Shown piece by piece: positions 773 through 18,078 of a DNA stretch of 29,423 bases. Each line of letters opens with the position of its first letter. Positions within the stretch are counted from its first letter, which is position 1. The notes beneath the pieces were generated by a model. It saw only the letters and a program-made list of their open reading frames with translations. It was not told the DNA's origin and did not search any database. This stretch comes from a virus. The translations under genes and the position numbers were made by a program. The stretch lies in IMG/VR virus record IMGVR_UViG_3300015262_000031, positions 1 through 29,423 of that record; one strand, written 5' to 3'.

Positions 773-2334
773 ATGTTCCGTAGAGCAGGCCACGGCGACA
801 CACATAAAAAGACGTTAATGAGAGCATTGAGCTCCAAGCTATTTTCGACCAATTTAGTAACTGGAGTTGTAACTAGGCAACATTCTTTCGACTATATGTT
901 CTCGGACTGGGAGGAATCTGACCGCTTGGATGCCACGCCCGAAACTCTGGCAAACCTAAAAATCCTAGGTTCGGTAATGAAAGACACGCCAAATACTGTA
1001 GTTGAAGGTTCAATACCTGCCGCCTATACCTACTTCGGACAGTTTGTTGACCATGACGTAACTTTTGACGAAGACTCGGCGTCAATTGCAAAACTAGCAG
1101 AGCCGACTCTCACCCCCTTCACGATCTAGCTATTCTGAAAAACTCTCGCACCGCAACGTTAGAGCTGGACAGTGTTTACTTTTCGGCAGTACCACGTGAT
1201 TCGATAAATAATGAAAAACTAAAGGTCGGTGAAAACTCCCCATTGAATGGAACAAATAAACCCATCTTGCGGCCAGAAAAAAAGTCAAAGCTCAACGACC
1301 TCCCCCGAACAGCAAGAAACATCGACCCTCAACTTGATCGCGCAGCAGAAATCGGAGACCCTCGAAACGATGAAAATATAATCGTTGCGCAATTACACAC
1401 AGCCTTCCTGAAAGCCCACAATACATTTATAGATACCGGTTTAAGTTTCGATGAAGCAAAGAAAGAGATCATTCTGCGCTACCAATCCGTGGTGCTCGAT
1501 GACTTCTTGAGCCGTGTATGTGATCCTGAAGTGCATCAAAAAGTGCTTACGGAAGGTCCCAGCCATTGGATTATTGAAAAGCCAGACGATCTTTTCATGC
1601 CGGTCGAGTTTGCTTACGCTGCATACCGATTTGGCCATTCAATGGTGAGGACTAATTACAACTACAATCTAAATTTCGAAAATACCGGACTGGACACTCT
1701 TTTCACGTTTACCGCGCTAAGCGGCCAGATCGGCGGAGGGGTAGTCAATCAAGATGGCTTTGATACAGTCCCTGACAATTGGATCATCCAATGGGAACGT
1801 TTGATAGAGCTGCCATCTTCTCTGGCAGTGCAAAATGCCCACCCAATAGATACGCAACTTACAAATTTTTTGTTTAACTTGAGAGACACTTTTGGAAACC
1901 CTCAAGGCCAAGGAGATTCAGCAGAGGTAACAGAGCTAGCTCCCATACTCGCAAAAAGGAATTTATTAAGAGGTTTTTTGGTTGGCCTGCCAACCGGGCA
2001 GGCAATGGCAAAAAAATTCGGTATCCCTCCATTGCAAGGGCAAGAGTTAGTAGATGCATTGCCTACAGTAGAACTGAAGCAGGCGATCATCCCTTTTAAA
2101 GAAAAAACACCTTTATGGTTCTATATTCTTGCTGAAGCCGGGAACGTTTCAGAAGGCGCACCAGCGGGAAAACACTTGGGGAAAGTAGGGAGTACGATTT
2201 TAATGGAAACATTTCACAACCTAATAAAACACTCTCCCATTTCAATATTAGACGGTGGAAATCATGGCACATTGCGTCCATTCACATTAGCGATGCTCCT
2301 AGAGCTAGCAGCCAAGCAGGATCCAACACTATGA
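773..2334 (+). pseudogene. Animal-type haem peroxidase, split by a frameshift
   Basis: Two ORFs together form a bacterial member of the animal haem peroxidase superfamily (myeloperoxidase-like fold). The first runs from ATG 773 (AGGAG at 760-764) and carries the distal-His motif GQFVDHDVT (His94, 1052-1054). It stops at 1127-1129. The protein continues in the next frame with HDLAILKNSRT, then GDPRNDEN (distal Arg/Glu region) and RFGHSMV with the proximal His (1636-1638). The frames rejoin at a run of five C (1113-1117); one more C restores a ~520-aa protein. All catalytic residues are present, so the break is recent or a sequencing error. No signal peptide is seen. The family oxidises halides or phenols with H2O2. 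The following 114-aa gene overlaps its stop. Confidence 0.8.
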
Positions 2335-10355: not shown

Positions 10356-13300
10356 TTACCCCAGGTAGCCGAGACGGACGCGCAACACGTTGTTGGCGTC
10401 GTAGACCGATACGTTCAGCGAGTTGATCACCAGGCGCCCCTGCCCCGGGACTATGCCGTTAATCTCCAGCGTTCCGTCTTTATTGAGAATCCAGCCTTGC
10501 TGACCGGCGATGTAGTTGGTGGAGCTGATGTAGCTGCCGATCTTGGCGTTGGTGATGGTTCCGTCGGCGATGAACGCCGAGTTGATGAACACCTGGCCAC
10601 CCTGCACCGCAAACGGAACCGAAATGGCGCCGCCGGCGATGGTATTGACGATGGCAAACCGATCCGCGCTGACCAGGAACTGGCTTTGCAAACCAGCACC
10701 GGTGTTCTCGATGCCCAGGCCGATACCTGCGGCGATGTACTTGCCATCGGCCGCCACCTGCATTTTCACCGACCACATGGTGTTCAGCTTGCCGGCCGTG
10801 TCCGCGTAGGCCGTCGACGTCTGCTGGATAGCCGCAGTGTTTTGTCCGACCGACACGTTCAACTGGTCGATCTTGGTGGCCGTCGCTGACTCGTTGGTGG
10901 CCACCACCTGTTCCAGCTCGGTGATGTTGGCCGCGTTCTCGCCGATCTTCGCATCGAAGGTGGTGATACGCTGCGCAAACGCCTCGTTTTCAGAGGTGCG
11001 AACCTTGGATTCCGAAGCGATGGCCGCGGTGCTGGACCAACCCTTGAGGGCGTCGGCCAGGTCCCCTTCCCCGTTGTCGTCTCGCGACGATGCTCGAAGC
11101 GCCTGGAATGCAGTTGCTTGGGCGGTGACAACGCCGTCGATCTCGGTGATGTCTTGAGTGTTGAAGGCTACCTGTTGAGCCAGCCCGTTCGCCGTCTCGA
11201 TTGACTCACCGACATCCAGCCAGTAGGTCGCATTCGGCGGCGGGGTGTTGATTGGCACCTCGCCCTTTGCCTGGAAGATATGGCCGTCCGTAACCACCAT
11301 CTGGTCTTTCTCGTAGACCTGATCCGGCTTGTAGGCGGTCAGGCCGTCAAGCGCGTAGATCTGGTCCTGAAGACCGGGGATTTTGTTGATCTCGTCCAGC
11401 AGGTCCTGACCCAGTTCCGTCTCGCCAATCTGACCAGCGATCATTTCCAAGATGGCCGCCGCGTCCGCGCTCGACTGACCCATAACGCCAAGCCCGATCG
11501 GGTACCAAGGCCCGATGTTGCCAATGCGGTCTACCAACCGCGCCCAGAAGAAAAACGTCACGCCGGCACGCAGCCCTAGCATCGAGAAATCACTTTGCGG
11601 GTATGACAGGTCCGTCAGCTTGGTGGCGGCCTCGAGACTGGTCGTCGGCCCATACCAGATTTCCGTGCGCTGGGTGTCCTCGGCGCCAGCCGGGAAGCCC
11701 CACTTCAGATAGATGCCGAACAGCAATGGCGTGGCCGTCAGGTATGAAACCGCCGGCGGCAATCCCACCTTACCCTTGAGGTTGGTCAGCATCGAGCTGC
11801 GCCAGATCGAGGAGATGTCGAAAGAGCTGACCGCGCGGACGCGGGCCAAGTAATCGCCTGCATAGATGCCGACGACATCCACGCCGGTGGAGCCCGTACG
11901 CGGCAGTTTGATCCAGTTGCCGCTGTCCTTACGCCACTCAACGTCATATGCAACTGCGCCGTTCACCGCCGGCCAAGTAATAGACATGGTGGCCACGGCT
12001 ATGCCCTGGGACACGACAGAGTTCGACGTGACCGTCACGCTCGCCGGCGCCGGAACGACGGTGATCGGAATCACGCTGATTGGGCGTTCCTCCAGACGGG
12101 CGCCAGTGTCGATGTGAGCGAACTTGCTCGGGTCGTACTGGACGGCCGAGATCTCAAATACACCAGGCTCCGGCCGCGAAACTGCCGTAACCCGATAAAG
12201 CGGTACGGCCAAGTCATCGGCATCCAGCGCCCAGACAAGTTCAGGCTCAGGCACCGCAGAGAAGGCAACCGTCACGGTAACCACACGCCCCGCCACCGAT
12301 TGCACGGTACGGCCCTCGCACTTGCCGTTGGGCAGGTTCACGATCAAACGGTCCCCGGCCTTGGCCTGGGTGTCCCGGTCCAGCGTGATAGCGCGGCCAG
12401 CAACCGCCGAGATGCGCCCACCAATCGCGCGGCCGGCCAACAGTTCGTCAGCCACCGGAATGACGTAGCCAGGCAACGGGATGCGACCATCCAGGCCAAC
12501 ACGGAAGTTGATTCCGCGATCTTTCGAGTTGGTCAGCAGTGCCCATTTACCCCGGCGCTGCGCTTCCGATTCACGGGTGCAGCCGATTGCGCTGATCTCC
12601 AGCGGGTTGTCGCCGTAGCGCCGCTGAAGCTTGGCATCGGTCACCGCGGTGACGTCGGTGTCGTAGTTGTTGGCCGGGTTGTCGTAGCTGATCAGGGCTC
12701 GACTGTAGCGAGTGCGCTCCGATGCGCTCGAGTAAGTGAACTTGCCGTCGATGACATTCGCCCGGGTATAGGCAAAGTCGAAGTCGGTGGCGCGCGGCAT
12801 GTCCGACAGCGTGAAGACCTGGCCCTGAGCCCAGTAGGTCATGCCCCGGTAGATCGCCGAGATATCGCGCAGCAGGGCCCAGGCATCGGCCTTGCCCTGG
12901 AGGTTCAGGTTGCAGATGAAGCGCGGCTCTTGGCCGCCTTTACCATCGGGAACCAGTTGATCGCAGTACTGGGCGATCCGGTACAGCTCCCACTTGTCGA
13001 CCTGCCACGGCTTGATGCGACGGCCCAAGCCGAAACGATCATTCACCGTGATGCCGTAGGTGATCCACGCCGGATTATCGGTCCAGGCCTCCTTGAGAGT
13101 GCCGTCCCAGATACCGGTATAGCTTCGAGCTTCCGGGTTGTAGTTGCTGGGCACCAGCCATTTGCGGGCTTGGCATTCGATGGTCACCGCCGGAATGTTG
13201 CGAAACTGCTCGGCCGAGAATTCGATGTAGAGCAGCGCCGTGTTCGGATAGCGCAGCTTGGCGTCGATGACTTCGGTGAAGCCAGCGATTTGCATGGTGT

Positions 13301-13919
13301 CGGCGATTTTATTGTTGTTCTGGTTCGGTGTAATGCGGGTGACGCGGATCAACCAGCCGCTAGTAGCGGCGGGCAGATCAATTCGGCGAGTTCGCTCATA
13401 GGTGCTGGTGGTTTTACCGTCGACGGCTTCGCTCAGCACCTGCTGATAGGCCCCACCGTCGGTGGCCAGCTCAACCTTGTATTCAATCCGATAGCCATTC
13501 ACGTTACCGCTGGCATCAACCGATTGCAGCGCAGGCCAGGCGAAGCGCAGGCGCACTGCTGACAGCTCGGTATTGCTGATCGCTCGAACCCACGGCGTGC
13601 CGCTGCGCAATTCGATTCCCAGAGAGGTTTCGTTCTCGATGGACGGGATACCCTGGATGTAACTCTGCTCGACTGAGCCGCTGCGGAACTCCCACTTAAC
13701 GTTGGGGAAGTTCATATTGCCCTGGGGATCTTGCAGCGGCGTGTTGTCGAGGAAGATGTCTTGTGCGGTCGGGTTGCCGGCGAACTCGCCCTCCCCGATC
13801 GCGATCAGGATCTTGGCCACGGCCACCGAACGCAGGCTGTCCGGCGCCTCGGTCGGCGTCTTCGGCTTGTCCGATCCGCCCTTGGCGCCGTAGATATCAA
13901 GCTGCTGTGCTGCGCCCAT
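10356..13919 (-). CDS. J: Tail tip host-specificity protein J
   Basis: 1187 aa from ATG 13919, behind GGAGAAAAGC; the frame is open to 14048, but the extension overlaps gene I and reads poorly. This is the central tail fibre of lambda-type phages. The N-terminal ~600 residues match the conserved J core (GAKGGSDKPKTPTEAPDSLR at the start, LNLQGKADAWALLRDISAIY in the middle). A fibronectin-III-like segment follows (~residues 640-730), then a short aromatic carbohydrate-binding-like module around YKPDQVYEKDQMVV. The rest is a helical repeat region and a variable C-terminus ending RVRLGYLG. The C-terminus is expected to contact the receptor. Gene I precedes it. Confidence 0.92.
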   Translation of the reverse strand: MGAAQQLDIYGAKGGSDKPKTPTEAPDSLRSVAVAKILIAIGEGEFAGNPTAQDIFLDNTPLQDPQGNMNFPNVKWEFRSGSVEQSYIQGIPSIENETSLGIELRSGTPWVRAISNTELSAVRLRFAWPALQSVDASGNVNGYRIEYKVELATDGGAYQQVLSEAVDGKTTSTYERTRRIDLPAATSGWLIRVTRITPNQNNNKIADTMQIAGFTEVIDAKLRYPNTALLYIEFSAEQFRNIPAVTIECQARKWLVPSNYNPEARSYTGIWDGTLKEAWTDNPAWITYGITVNDRFGLGRRIKPWQVDKWELYRIAQYCDQLVPDGKGGQEPRFICNLNLQGKADAWALLRDISAIYRGMTYWAQGQVFTLSDMPRATDFDFAYTRANVIDGKFTYSSASERTRYSRALISYDNPANNYDTDVTAVTDAKLQRRYGDNPLEISAIGCTRESEAQRRGKWALLTNSKDRGINFRVGLDGRIPLPGYVIPVADELLAGRAIGGRISAVAGRAITLDRDTQAKAGDRLIVNLPNGKCEGRTVQSVAGRVVTVTVAFSAVPEPELVWALDADDLAVPLYRVTAVSRPEPGVFEISAVQYDPSKFAHIDTGARLEERPISVIPITVVPAPASVTVTSNSVVSQGIAVATMSITWPAVNGAVAYDVEWRKDSGNWIKLPRTGSTGVDVVGIYAGDYLARVRAVSSFDISSIWRSSMLTNLKGKVGLPPAVSYLTATPLLFGIYLKWGFPAGAEDTQRTEIWYGPTTSLEAATKLTDLSYPQSDFSMLGLRAGVTFFFWARLVDRIGNIGPWYPIGLGVMGQSSADAAAILEMIAGQIGETELGQDLLDEINKIPGLQDQIYALDGLTAYKPDQVYEKDQMVVTDGHIFQAKGEVPINTPPPNATYWLDVGESIETANGLAQQVAFNTQDITEIDGVVTAQATAFQALRASSRDDNGEGDLADALKGWSSTAAIASESKVRTSENEAFAQRITTFDAKIGENAANITELEQVVATNESATATKIDQLNVSVGQNTAAIQQTSTAYADTAGKLNTMWSVKMQVAADGKYIAAGIGLGIENTGAGLQSQFLVSADRFAIVNTIAGGAISVPFAVQGGQVFINSAFIADGTITNAKIGSYISSTNYIAGQQGWILNKDGTLEINGIVPGQGRLVINSLNVSVYDANNVLRVRLGYLG

Positions 13920-13936
13920 GCTTTTCTCCAGGCAAT

Positions 13937-13957
13937 AAAAAACCGCCTCATGGGCGG
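13937..13957 (-). terminator. Terminator between I and J
   Basis: On the minus strand, CCGCC-CATGA-GGCGG is followed by TTTTTT. The J ribosome-binding site (CCTGGAGAAAA) begins a few bases later. Confidence 0.6.
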
Positions 13958-13978
13958 CTGTGTTGTTCAGCGATTTGG

Positions 13979-14581
13979 CTACATCTGGTCTTCTGCGTAG
14001 ATCGCGGCACTGATGATCGCGCCACCCCACCGACGCTTGCCGATGCAAAGCGGTACCGGGTTACCTGACGCCGTGGTGTTCTTCGCGCTGCCGAAGGCAT
14101 AGCCCGGAGTGTTCTCGGGGGCTGCGCTCGTCTTCAGGCCTTTGGCTTGCGGACTCAGCATTTGAATGACTCCGCTGATCACCATTGCAGCGCCAACCTG
14201 ATAGAGGAATGGTGAAGCTGCAGCGAACGGTGTGAAAGACAGCACAAATGCGACAGCGATTAGGACGGAGCCAACAATGGTTTGAAAGGATCCGCCCCGC
14301 TTGCTCCCTGTGACTACAGGTGCAATACGAATTTCGTCAGAGCCACTGAAACTCAGTTCGTTCTCTTGAACGGTTTTAGAGCCGCGGAAGACCGCGAACT
14401 CAATCCCTTGGGATTTTGCATTTGAAATGAAACGCTCAAACCCGGGGATTTGGATGCACAGTGCTTTTATGGCTTCCGCCGGAGAGCGCACCGATAGTCT
14501 GAATGATCGACCGAATTGCCGCAGTTGCCCGTAAAGCCTGATCGTGGTCATGGGCTGATAGGCGATAGAAAATGCAGCCAT
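13979..14581 (-). CDS. I: Tail assembly protein I
   Basis: 200 aa, lambda tail assembly protein I family. The N-terminal region (TIRLYGQLRQFGRSFRLSV, then EAIKALCIQIPGFE) is beta-grasp-like, as usual for the family. Two hydrophobic glycine-rich segments follow (residues ~100-120 and ~125-145), then a C-terminus with GSAKNTTASGNPVPLCIGKR. In lambda, I and K are needed to assemble the tail tip around J. ATG 14581 is preceded by CCTGGAGAAAAC. It lies between the accessory cassette and J, where lambda has K-I-J in direct succession. Confidence 0.85.
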   Translation of the reverse strand: MAAFSIAYQPMTTIRLYGQLRQFGRSFRLSVRSPAEAIKALCIQIPGFERFISNAKSQGIEFAVFRGSKTVQENELSFSGSDEIRIAPVVTGSKRGGSFQTIVGSVLIAVAFVLSFTPFAAASPFLYQVGAAMVISGVIQMLSPQAKGLKTSAAPENTPGYAFGSAKNTTASGNPVPLCIGKRRWGGAIISAAIYAEDQM

Positions 14582-14597: not shown

Positions 14598-14624
14598 AAA
14601 AAAACCGCCTCTCGAGCGGTTTTT
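14598..14624. terminator. Bidirectional terminator between the lipoprotein gene and I
   Basis: AAAACCGC pairs with GCGGTTTT (14601-14608 with 14616-14623). T runs lie on both sides, so it can act in both directions. It closes the accessory cassette on the side of gene I. Confidence 0.7.
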
Positions 14625-14629
14625 AAATC

Positions 14630-15052
14630 TCACAGCGTCGTAGGCAAAATATCTATCTGCCCATCGCCACCAGTAAACACTCGGTACTTCTTCACTGAGT
14701 TTTGTGCTGCTACCGCATCTCGCTCGATACGCTCGGTGCCCATCCCACACATTCCTGATCCAGAATAGGCGGCACCCAAAGTCAACGGACCTGGCGCCAC
14801 AAAGAATGCTGCTTTCTGCCCAGGGTCAAGCAAAGCAACCTTCTCGCCGTCGATAAAGACAGCCATTGAACAGAAACTACCCGTATGTCCCGAGTCGCGT
14901 ATCACCTGAACTGTTCCGAAGCTACCCGCAGGCTTGCTTTGGAATTTCAAAAGCTGCTGGGCAGGAGCCTGCGATGCTTGGGAAGAAGGAACTGGAGATG
15001 TAGAACACCCCGCCAACGCCACCAGCACCAATGCCCCTACGGAAATTTTCAT
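14630..15052 (-). CDS. Phage-encoded lipoprotein, possible superinfection exclusion protein
   Basis: 140 aa with a lipoprotein signal: MKISVGALVLVALAGC, lipobox LAGC with Cys16. A Ser/Ala/Pro/Gln linker follows, then a beta-rich domain of ~100 residues with FIDGEKVALLDPGQ and APGPLTLGAAYSG. A GAGGGA site precedes the ATG. It is expected in the outer or inner membrane, facing the periplasm. Lambdoid and T5-like phages place lipoproteins such as Cor or Llp near receptor-binding genes to block reinfection through the same receptor; the position next to I and J suggests the same, but no sequence match to those proteins was recognised. A terminator follows the stop. Confidence 0.7.
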   Translation of the reverse strand: MKISVGALVLVALAGCSTSPVPSSQASQAPAQQLLKFQSKPAGSFGTVQVIRDSGHTGSFCSMAVFIDGEKVALLDPGQKAAFFVAPGPLTLGAAYSGSGMCGMGTERIERDAVAAQNSVKKYRVFTGGDGQIDILPTTL

Positions 15053-15373
15053 GTCATTCCCTCGCTGAGATTTGACGAGACCTTATCACCAACGAGCGAG
15101 CAACACGAAAGCCCAAAATCAGCGAGGATCCTCCGGTTCGCTGCCTGCTCTCTATACAGTCCGGATGTGAAATCAAGTTTCGCAGCGCCCAGAGGTAGCC
15201 CTCGACTGAAATCCAGCTATGAATGGACCAATAGGCTTGACGAGATCGTTCCACCATATACTTCTGCTCAGCAGCAGCCAAATTATGCTCTAGACTTTTA
15301 TCAATTAAAACGCAAAACAAAGGTAAAACGTATAGCAAGCAACTACACGTTTTTCGCAGCTGGAAGGTATCTT

Positions 15374-16405
15374 ATGTCAGAGAAACCAATTCGCCCTGCC
15401 AGACATCTAAGACGCACTGGGTTAAAGCACGCCCCACTTTTGCAGAGCAAGAATTTACTTGAAATTCTTTCCGGGCTGAAAGTCCCAGACGGAGTCTTGA
15501 CTGTTCTTCTGACCTTTTTATCCGCCTTAACTTTAGCCCCATACTTGGGTGGTCGCGCCCTTTGGATCCTAGGCGGAAACCCAGTAGTCATTCCCACTTT
15601 ATCCGAGCAGCTCTTCTGGACGATCATAATTATAACGCCATACATATGGATGCTTGCCCTTGGGCGAATATTTCACGCTTCAAAGTTCAAGATTGCCGTC
15701 AATCTATTTTCAGCCTCAGCTGTTACCGCAGCATTGGTAACCATTCATTCCTTTTACCCCATCATAGGTCTGACCGCGATCGACTCCTCGTACTTAGAAG
15801 AACATGAGGTTTCCGCATGGTACTTAACAGCCGCACACGAAGATGCAAAATATAAATACTTTCGATCAGAACCAATTAATCTTGAACTTGAAAAAGGGTG
15901 TGCCTTACGAATAGAACGCATAGAGCTTTCCGCCAGCGGCTGGGCAAATATCGAAAATTCAACATCAGGGTTTGACATTCAAATATTTGCCAGCACGTCA
16001 GAACTTCTTGCTCCGACATTCAAATCCCATCAAGACCGTAACAACTCAGCAACTATGGAAGCCTCGATGGCTAACACATTGCGCAATGAACCAACCAACG
16101 CAGAGGTAAAAGGTCGATCAACTGTCAGAATAAACAGTACGGACTTAATCAATGAAAATCACATAAATCTAAATATTACATATGATTTCATCGGCCACAC
16201 CACAAAGGTCGAACCGGGGGAATACTCCAAAAAAAAACTTGAACGATCCGATTTAGTAATCCGAAATACGAATGCAAAACTACAACTCGTCGGCTGGACA
16301 CTATATGGTGACGAGGTCGAGCTTACGATTAACGACCCTATAATAAGAGTTACAGGAAAAGAACATTGCTCTCTACCGTCGTGGGTCTTGCGACAAACGA
16401 ACTAA
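15374..16405 (+). CDS. AT-rich multi-TM protein, accessory (moron) gene in the tail module
   Basis: 343 aa on the strand opposite to the late operon. ATG 15374 follows GGAAGGT; the frame is open to 14885, but that part overlaps the lipoprotein gene and is rejected. Three hydrophobic segments are visible: ~residues 37-57 (VLTVLLTFLSALTLAPYLGG), 73-93 (QLFWTIIIITPYIWMLAL) and 102-124 (IAVNLFSASAVTAALVTIHS). About 215 polar residues without membrane segments follow, with a C-terminus at CSLPSWVLRQTN. The base composition is clearly more AT-rich than in the tail genes, a sign of separate origin. The family is not recognised. Exclusion, anti-phage or lysogenic conversion roles are possible. The 321 bp upstream (15053-15373) show no clear promoter. 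Confidence 0.75.
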   Translation: MSEKPIRPARHLRRTGLKHAPLLQSKNLLEILSGLKVPDGVLTVLLTFLSALTLAPYLGGRALWILGGNPVVIPTLSEQLFWTIIIITPYIWMLALGRIFHASKFKIAVNLFSASAVTAALVTIHSFYPIIGLTAIDSSYLEEHEVSAWYLTAAHEDAKYKYFRSEPINLELEKGCALRIERIELSASGWANIENSTSGFDIQIFASTSELLAPTFKSHQDRNNSATMEASMANTLRNEPTNAEVKGRSTVRINSTDLINENHINLNITYDFIGHTTKVEPGEYSKKKLERSDLVIRNTNAKLQLVGWTLYGDEVELTINDPIIRVTGKEHCSLPSWVLRQTN

Positions 16406-16467
16406 CTTACGCCAACCACCTGGATATCGCACATCCATTATGGTAATCCTATGAATTCTTCAGCGGG

Positions 16468-16533
16468 TCAGCCGGTTAACTTGATCAAGCCCGTCAGCAC
16501 CACACCTTCAAGCCATGCTATCGCATTGCTCAT
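16468..16533 (-). CDS. Possible 21-aa peptide behind K
   Basis: A short ORF (MSNAIAWLEGVVLTGLIKLTG) starts 25 nt after the K stop, with a strong GGGAGGA site before its ATG. The peptide is hydrophobic and amphipathic. It may be a real small peptide or the leftover start of a gene displaced by the accessory cassette. The rest of the 16406-16558 gap has nothing visible. Confidence 0.35.
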   Translation of the reverse strand: MSNAIAWLEGVVLTGLIKLTG

Positions 16534-16558
16534 AAGGTCCTCCCACGGCTCTACCGCA

Positions 16559-17323
16559 TCATGTGGTTGATTGTGCATCTTTGTGCCTGAGGATCAGACG
16601 TGTTCGGTCCAGCCAAGGACCGCCGAAGACAATGATCTCGCTCGGGCGTCCATACAGGTGGTGCAAAAGGAATGGCCCGGGGCCGAAGGTGTTTCCCTCT
16701 TCGCCTGGCAGAGCTGGGTCCGAGCCGAGGTAAATCCCGGCGTGGTTCGGATGAGCTGTGCGGCCGACCGCCATAACGATCATGTCGCCGCGCTGCGGCC
16801 GGTCAACTCGCACGAAGCCGGCTGCCTCGTAGTTGGATTCGTACAGGCTTTCAGTCTCAGCACTCTCCCACCACCCCTCTTCTCGCTTGAAGGCCTCAAA
16901 CTCAAGCCCCCACTCGCACTGGTACCAGTCCGCGCAGATCTGCCAGCAGTCCCACGCCCCGTGCACGAACGGCCGGTTTAGCAGCGATGTGCTGCCGCTT
17001 GGGGTGATGGTGCGCAGATCGCCTTCCGGCCAGCTGAGGATGTGCCAAGGCAAGACTGTCGCCTCGCACATGGCCAGGTCGTGCGGTGACGGCCGGCTGG
17101 TTGCGTCAGGGTGAGTGTGGAAGATGCCGATCACCTCACCAACGTCTTCCGCCGCGGCGTAGTCCTCAGGATCGATTCGAAACTCTTCGGTCGGCTCAGT
17201 GGCGATGTTCCGGCATGGGAAGTACTTCTGCTTCCTACCGATCGCCAGCAGCAACCCGCAAGCCTCTTTCGGATACTGGGCTGCCGCGTGCGCTGCCATG
17301 GCGCTCAAAATGTGCTTGCGCAT
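16559..17323 (-). CDS. K: Tail assembly protein K (JAMM + NlpC/P60)
   Basis: 254 aa, two domains. The N-terminal JAMM/MPN domain has Glu20 (PKEACGLLL) and the full metal-binding motif FHTHPDATSRPSPHD (His69, His71, Ser79, Asp82). The C-terminal NlpC/P60 domain has Cys126 (GAWDCWQICADW) and His194 (NHAGIYLG). In lambda-type phages this protein helps to assemble the tail tip, and the P60 domain may cut peptidoglycan peptides. ATG 17323 lies 7 nt after GGAG and 2 nt past the L stop. The longer reading from 17425 overlaps L and is rejected. Confidence 0.92.
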   Translation of the reverse strand: MRKHILSAMAAHAAAQYPKEACGLLLAIGRKQKYFPCRNIATEPTEEFRIDPEDYAAAEDVGEVIGIFHTHPDATSRPSPHDLAMCEATVLPWHILSWPEGDLRTITPSGSTSLLNRPFVHGAWDCWQICADWYQCEWGLEFEAFKREEGWWESAETESLYESNYEAAGFVRVDRPQRGDMIVMAVGRTAHPNHAGIYLGSDPALPGEEGNTFGPGPFLLHHLYGRPSEIIVFGGPWLDRTRLILRHKDAQSTT

Positions 17324-17325
17324 GG

Positions 17326-18078
17326 TCAACTCCGTGCAATCAGGGACACCGCGGGGAATCCGCCGTGAGGAAGTTGGTTGTTCTCGCCGAAACGCAATTT
17401 GCAGGACTTGAGCCCACCCTTGCACTCGTCCTTGCTAGGGTCGTCCGTGGGGTTGTCGTCGTCATCGAACATGGCGCCGCCGGTGTAGCCGCAGTTCGGG
17501 CCGCGGTACCCGCCGGTCATTGCCCAGTGGCAGAAGGTCGTCATCTGCCGGCCCGGCAATCCGTGGTTGTCGATCTCACCAGGTGAGGACAGATCCCATT
17601 GCACTACCTCGCCGTCTTCACTGGTCTTCTGATCGATAAACCAGATTTCCAACGCTTCTTGCGTCGGGTCGGCAGTCGGATTGCCGTCTGGGAAGTTCGC
17701 CGCATCCAAGTACTTGACCATCGTCTCGCGCACGGTCAGCTGAAACTTCAACAGGTCATCGAAAGCCAGGCACAGGGCCGTGATGCGACCGTTCACGTTG
17801 GCAGCCATGAACGTGGGCCGTGTGGCACTGCCATTACTGTCGGCGCCGATGCCTTCGATCTGCACGGGCCAAGCTGCGTATTCGTTGCCCTGCCAAATGA
17901 TCGACTTAGCCGGCAGCTCTTCTGCTGAACCCTCATAAGCCAAAAGCTCATCGGGTGTGTGCGGGATGGCGTGAGCGTGAAAGCGCAGAACGTCCGCGCC
18001 GTACTCCGTGCCATCGATTTCAAACAGCCGCACTTCCCCGCCGGGCTCCAGCTTCTGGATGTCCGTAATCAAAGCCAT
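17326..18078 (-). CDS. L: Minor tail protein L
   Basis: 250 aa, lambda minor tail protein L family. It opens MALITDIQKLEPGGEVRLFE. The middle contains GRITALCLAFDDLLKFQLTV. The C-terminal region has four clustered cysteines (TTFCHW, GPNCGY, KDECKG, LKSCKL), the arrangement that holds an iron-sulphur cluster in lambda gpL. It acts in the tail-tip complex with M, K, I and J, and lies in the lambda order M-L-K. Confidence 0.9.
   Translation of the reverse strand: MALITDIQKLEPGGEVRLFEIDGTEYGADVLRFHAHAIPHTPDELLAYEGSAEELPAKSIIWQGNEYAAWPVQIEGIGADSNGSATRPTFMAANVNGRITALCLAFDDLLKFQLTVRETMVKYLDAANFPDGNPTADPTQEALEIWFIDQKTSEDGEVVQWDLSSPGEIDNHGLPGRQMTTFCHWAMTGGYRGPNCGYTGGAMFDDDDNPTDDPSKDECKGGLKSCKLRFGENNQLPHGGFPAVSLIARS

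Follow-up and report, generated by a model that had tools for sequence, protein, structure and literature searches.

A resident lipoprotein gene and a changing cargo slot between the lambda-type tail genes K and I of a virus, with a possible role in superinfection exclusion

Organization of the K–I region

The window analyzed here is the whole of a 29,423-base virus record from IMG/VR, and its tail genes match those of the Pseudomonas phages phiAH14a and PseuP_222. The late genes on its minus strand are arranged in the order K, lipoprotein, I, J, and an open reading frame for a 343-aa protein lies on the plus strand, in the interval that separates K from the lipoprotein gene. Gene K (16559–17425, minus strand) has lambda-type matches to the Prok-JAB and NlpC/P60 domains. 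Gene I (13979–14581, minus strand) codes for the 200-aa tail tip insertion or plug protein gpI (Pfam Lambda_tail_I, E = 1.1e-8; PHROG 32, E = 1.3e-73), and the J central tail fibre, listed as an open reading frame at 10356–14048 on the minus strand, matches the J-type tail fibres of phiAH14a and PseuP_222. A preliminary description of this DNA had placed about 2 kb of foreign base composition between K and I, and both points hold: the distance is 1977 bp, both flanking genes are lambda-type by profile, and the GC content is 44% in the region as compared with about 60% in the tail genes.

Two other features of the window are recorded here. A second hairpin with a T run, on the late strand at 13941–13959, is near the I–J junction. 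Far from the tail genes, a low-GC open reading frame of 363 aa (1243–2334, plus strand) has a partial match to animal haem peroxidase (Pfam E = 2e-10) and no PHROG match, and sits in an AT-rich stretch (about 500–2700) without recognized phage genes.

The lipoprotein gene

The gene adjacent to I (14630–15052, minus strand) codes for a 140-aa protein of PHROG 890 (E = 1.2e-41), and the profile match is full-length, with residues 1–140 aligned on positions 1–136 of 136. The protein has a predicted signal peptide (residues 1–15), a putative lipid-anchored cysteine (Cys16), and the characteristic motifs of the family, namely the lipobox and RDSG...C...G.C, with two invariant cysteines, C61 and C102. 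The lipobox LAGC/S and the Shine-Dalgarno sequence GAGGGA agree with its earlier description as a secreted lipoprotein on the late strand. The mature part is predicted to be a beta-sandwich (AlphaFold2, pLDDT 84), for which a fold search returned only generic beta-sandwiches (best PDB match E = 2.8e-3) and uncharacterized viral matches; no experimental function for the PHROG 890 family was found in the literature.

The gene is flanked by putative transcription signals. An extended –10 element, TGATAAGGT, is located 27 nt before the lipoprotein start (15080–15088, minus strand) and is probably its own promoter, and a symmetric hairpin with A and T tracts (14600–14624) lies between the lipoprotein gene and I, consistent with the bidirectional terminator noted previously. 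Across 116 non-identical upstream regions, TGNTANNNT is present 25–30 nt before the lipoprotein start (mostly 25–28, rarely 38) in 59.5%, whereas it occurs at 0% before I, 1.1% inside the lipoprotein gene and 4.1% in shuffled sequences; the strict –10 motif is absent from about 40% of the relatives. Downstream of the lipoprotein gene, 118 of 124 relatives have a hairpin with a T run.

A loose scan found an open reading frame with a lipobox just before I in 126 of 127 K–I intervals, and a stricter one gave 124 loci plus the window, in which there are two unrelated lipoprotein families (69 PHROG 890 and 55 PHROG 914-like, with one false assignment). As in the window, PHROG 890 genes occupy the K–I place in phiAH14a (p83), in coliphage mEp390 (gp17) and in an N15-like Klebsiella plasmid; in the last two no cargo accompanies the gene, whereas the lipoprotein of the window sits beside a cargo gene. 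Members of the family also occur away from the tail operon. That of the phage-plasmid SSU5 lies in the early region, where its neighbours are a helicase and a repressor gene; in both SSU5 and HK639 the lipoprotein does not adjoin I. A PHROG 890 lipoprotein is beside I in the satellite phiAH14b. Judged from sequence, the lipoprotein gene of the window has the architecture of a moron resident at the K–I junction, with a promoter-like element and a terminator of its own; almost no relative lacks the lipoprotein.

Two further arrangements were seen among the related loci (numbered with the prefix L). In the 16.8 kb satellite phiAH14b (L004, 3353–4417), I comes first and the lipoprotein gene follows, and the surroundings contain no further annotated tail gene. 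The lipoprotein gene at L011 (5001–5420) contains an in-frame stop after 48 codons and is possibly a broken copy.

The K–I junction is a cargo slot

The comparison covers 127 distinct K–I intervals, gathered through relatives of the lipoprotein and of gpI in two query-biased scans. They range in length from 428 to 5691 bp with a median of 1812 bp, and at least 900 bp separate K and I in 117 of them; the statement in the preliminary description that phages of the lambda type keep K, I and J together therefore fails for this phage group. Cargo open reading frames predicted in these intervals form 180 clusters, although some of those listed are antisense artefacts. Most relatives bear other genes between K and the lipoprotein gene, and a few (L102, L105 and L160) bear none, with only 35–56 bp from K to the lipoprotein gene. 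Compared with these empty sites, the 343-aa gene of the window is an addition between two genes that otherwise adjoin each other. The K–I junction is thus a cargo slot, with contents that change from phage to phage.

The slot of the window is bordered upstream by K and contains a swapped block from 15141 to 16539, in which the gene for the 343-aa protein is the only gene. In blastn comparisons with about 120 relatives, homology ends at 16540, which is 19 nt past the end of K, and resumes at 15141, the limit of homology of the lipoprotein promoter. The nearest relative, IMGVR_UViG_3300041407_000352, matches the window at about 88% identity as far as 15017, which falls within the codons of the signal peptide, and at about 90% from 16529 onwards; the DNA between these points is unrelated. 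A segment of promoter and signal-peptide DNA (14996–15141 in the window) is also common to L118, L115 and L150, whose mature lipoproteins are of the other family, so that exchange seems to cut at the border of the signal peptide and the mature protein.

The cargo of relatives includes SieB (L152, E = 3.6e-31) and Imm_superinfect (L112, E = 6.6e-16), as well as AbiU2-HEPN, zeta toxin, SocA/Panacea and DUF4747 proteins, and there are PADLOC matches to the mREase_IV, RmrA and PDC-S families. The presence of SieB, Imm_superinfect, AbiU2 and PADLOC-type cargos indicates that exclusion and defence genes are part of what the slot contains, and many of its cargo genes are without known function. Membrane-protein cargos, mostly without a family, are present in the same slot at L148 (4234–4974), L039 (4971–5804), L051 (3614–4261) and L100 (2411–3067), and are candidates for prophage defence screening.

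The 343-aa protein

The cargo gene of the window (15374–16405, plus strand) is preceded by a Shine-Dalgarno sequence, GGAAGG, at 15362–15367, and inspection of the sequence gave no convincing promoter site. The reading frame is longer than expected by chance; in 1000 shuffles of the region the longest open frame was 100 codons on average and 243 at most. As previously described, the product of this divergent gene has three hydrophobic segments (at about residues 39–59, 79–99 and 107–128), and these are followed by a C-terminal domain (138–343, about 206 residues) with cysteines at 176 and 332. The N terminus is basic, and by the positive-inside pattern the protein is therefore predicted to be N-in, in the inner membrane, with the C-terminal domain in the periplasm. 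An AlphaFold2 model was unusable (pLDDT 37).

The description of this protein as belonging to no known family is confirmed, as there are no significant matches in Pfam, PHROGs, NCBIfam, PADLOC or the PDB. In particular, no SieA, SieB or Imm_superinfect profile in Pfam, PHROGs or NCBIfam matches it, and neither this protein nor the lipoprotein matches a PADLOC defence profile. Relatives were sought without success in phages, plasmids, six-frame translations of the loci, 50 whole related records, HMM libraries and the PDB; the genome contigs searched also gave none, and they gave no relatives of the lipoprotein either. The sole identical copy is in IMGVR_UViG_3300015265_000019, a contig that is the same as the window wherever compared. 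A match to DUF846 (E = 0.15) was rejected, as it reflects transmembrane similarity only. There is also an imperfect 20-nt direct repeat (80%), of which one copy (15072–15091) overlaps the lipoprotein promoter and the other (15237–15256) is upstream of the 343-aa gene; it may be due to chance.

The 343-aa protein has three predicted transmembrane segments, as many as P22 SieA (PMC10883804), but differs from the inner-membrane exclusion proteins P22 SieA, SieB and HK97 gp15 in its additional predicted periplasmic domain of about 206 residues. The L148 cargo noted above has, like the 343-aa protein, a divergent orientation, three N-terminal transmembrane segments and a soluble C-terminal domain (DUF4019), although no sequence relationship between the two is detectable.

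The lipoprotein covaries with the gpI hairpin

The tail tip of lambda is plugged by a trimer of gpI, whose two hydrophobic helices (H1–H2) are proposed to enter the outer membrane upon opening (PMC11101478), and a similar suggestion on gpI is made in PMC10721106. By position and hydrophobicity, residues 81–142 of gpI in the window are the likely counterpart of lambda H1–H2, with the hydrophobic hairpin itself at residues of about 100–142 (14156–14284, minus strand).

Sliding-window correlations were calculated for 44 non-redundant loci and partial correlations for 61, with permutations that ignore relatedness. The lipoprotein and I genes are linked, being 55 bp apart, and the loci come from the two query-biased scans uncorrected for relatedness, and within these limits the lipoprotein correlates with gpI at r = 0.87 for residues 81–140 and 0.80 for residues 121–160, as compared with 0.53–0.58 for residues 1–80, which are encoded nearer to the lipoprotein gene. 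The correlation with K is about 0.2, and that with the receptor-binding end of J (its last third) is 0.02–0.14, with partial correlations of about zero. Given the rest of gpI, the partial correlation for the hairpin is 0.78 overall (61 loci), 0.88 within the N-domain type of the window and 0.64 within PHROG 890 alone, whereas for the first 45 residues of gpI it is about zero or negative. The association of lipoprotein family with gpI as a whole is partly a product of locus sampling, to which comparisons within gpI are less exposed.

Pairs of loci show the same pattern. Where the N domain is the same and the lipoprotein type is different, the hairpin differs in eight of nine disjoint pairs, and mean hairpin identity is 0.86 in comparable same-type pairs versus 0.55 in different-type pairs (Mann-Whitney p = 9e-4); the K columns and the values conditioned on K in this comparison derive from unaligned DNA and are left out. 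In the window itself, a promoter and gpI N domain nearest to those of the other lipoprotein family are combined with a PHROG 890 lipoprotein and a PHROG 890-type hairpin. There are exceptions: L010, with lipoprotein A, has the same hairpin as L157, with lipoprotein C; L100 and L101 combine lipoprotein C with an A-type hairpin; and the nearest relative of the window keeps the lipoprotein (92% identical) but bears another hairpin. The lipoprotein sequence thus covaries with the gpI hairpin, with these exceptions and with relatedness uncorrected.

Possible roles of the two genes

We propose that two independent units share the K–I slot, a resident lipoprotein moron and a swappable cargo. The lipoprotein would probably be made in the lysogen and attached by its lipid to the periplasmic side of the outer membrane. 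There it would keep out superinfecting phages with the same type of tail at the step of DNA entry, in that it would bind or jam the hydrophobic hairpin of gpI as this tries to enter the outer membrane. Action at DNA entry is suggested by the match between an outer-membrane lipoprotein and the gpI hairpin, and by analogy with SieA, which acts against the P22 ejection proteins (PMC10883804). The gene for the 343-aa protein would be one interchangeable cargo of the slot between K and the lipoprotein gene, and its product, too, most likely serves in exclusion or defence. From the sequences we infer that both products are expressed in the lysogen and located in membranes. We think it somewhat probable that the lipoprotein excludes superinfecting phages, while the choice of gpI as its target is tentative. 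For the 343-aa protein a role in exclusion or defence is a good possibility though not a probable one, as sharing a slot with such genes is guilt by association rather than proof. The explanation as a whole has, in our view, a little less than an even chance of being correct. Superinfection exclusion or anti-phage activity, suggested in the preliminary description, remains the best interpretation of the two genes and is strengthened by the Cor-like proposal for a homolog (PMC4936722), the resident moron, and the SieB, Imm_superinfect, AbiU2-HEPN and PADLOC-type cargos of the slot; what does not stand is the notion of a single two-gene module.

Such a module, in which the lipoprotein and the 343-aa protein form one divergent pair, would fit their arrangement and the predicted envelope location of both, but it is highly improbable. 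The 343-aa gene is absent from dozens of relatives that have the lipoprotein, the nearest relative pairs its 92% identical lipoprotein with unrelated cargo, and a search of 50 whole related records gave no homolog of the 343-aa protein. The expectation that the two genes travel together is accordingly not borne out, since relatives retain the lipoprotein with other cargo or none and, apart from the identical contig, the 343-aa gene is known from this phage only; the two-gene cassette is largely refuted. A different possibility is that the lipoprotein attaches to the phage receptor on its periplasmic side and leaves it unable to bind J. There are precedents for receptor-blocking lipoproteins in T5 Llp with FhuA (PMC9586334), Rtp45 with LptD (PMC12685063) and Lpp021/Lpp010 (PMC11893012), Llp and Rtp45 acting at receptor binding (PMC9586334, PMC12685063), and it is for the phiAH14a homolog of this lipoprotein that the Cor-like role was proposed. 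Lipoproteins of the Cor, Llp, Rtp45 and Lpp021 type are small, encoded near tail-tip genes and have a cysteine pair, and the lipoprotein of the window likewise has its gene near J and two invariant cysteines; however, it is twice their size, is predicted to be a folded beta-sandwich, lacks homology to Lpp021 and has no Cor PHROG match. A receptor-blocking lipoprotein should also follow the receptor-binding end of J, and the lack of such tracking counts against this role, which we regard as unlikely. It likewise goes against the link to receptors implied in the preliminary description by the nearby receptor-binding genes, for the lipoprotein tracks the membrane hairpin of gpI and not the receptor-binding end of J.

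Covariation with the hairpin could have other origins. The lipoprotein might be a partner of gpI in the phage's own lytic growth, shielding the envelope from newly made, hydrophobic gpI or aiding tail-tip assembly, with no part in exclusion. The covariation, the 55-bp spacing and the late-strand location agree with this, but the lipoprotein gene has its own promoter-like element and terminator and lies away from I in SSU5 and HK639, and we consider such a partnership decidedly unlikely. Lambda itself is not known to have a lipoprotein between K and I, which also counts against it. Alternatively, the association with gpI may reflect linkage only, and both genes may be lysogenic-conversion genes unrelated to exclusion, for example in surface or stress fitness. 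The genes are adjacent, sampling was not independent and many cargo genes have no known function; nonetheless, the hairpin is more strongly associated with the lipoprotein than is the part of gpI encoded closest to the lipoprotein gene, and the slot is also used by known exclusion and defence genes, so that linkage alone seems a rather improbable explanation.

Exclusion through gpI could take a more specific form, that of a matched pair, in which lipoproteins recognize the gpI hairpin and the two are swapped together while the rest of gpI and J recombine freely; we advance this as a speculation, and a somewhat unlikely one. If it is true, exclusion by the matched pair would be specific to the DNA-entry device and not to the receptor. 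The passage of DNA across the outer membrane in lambda-like phages is unsettled, and the part of the gpI hairpin in it is a hypothesis based on structure. If the proposal is correct, a lipoprotein that is widespread and follows this hairpin would provide a genetic handle on it, and also a receptor-independent form of superinfection exclusion. The slot between K and the lipoprotein gene is in addition a place that can readily be mined for prophage defence genes, among them orphans such as the 343-aa protein.
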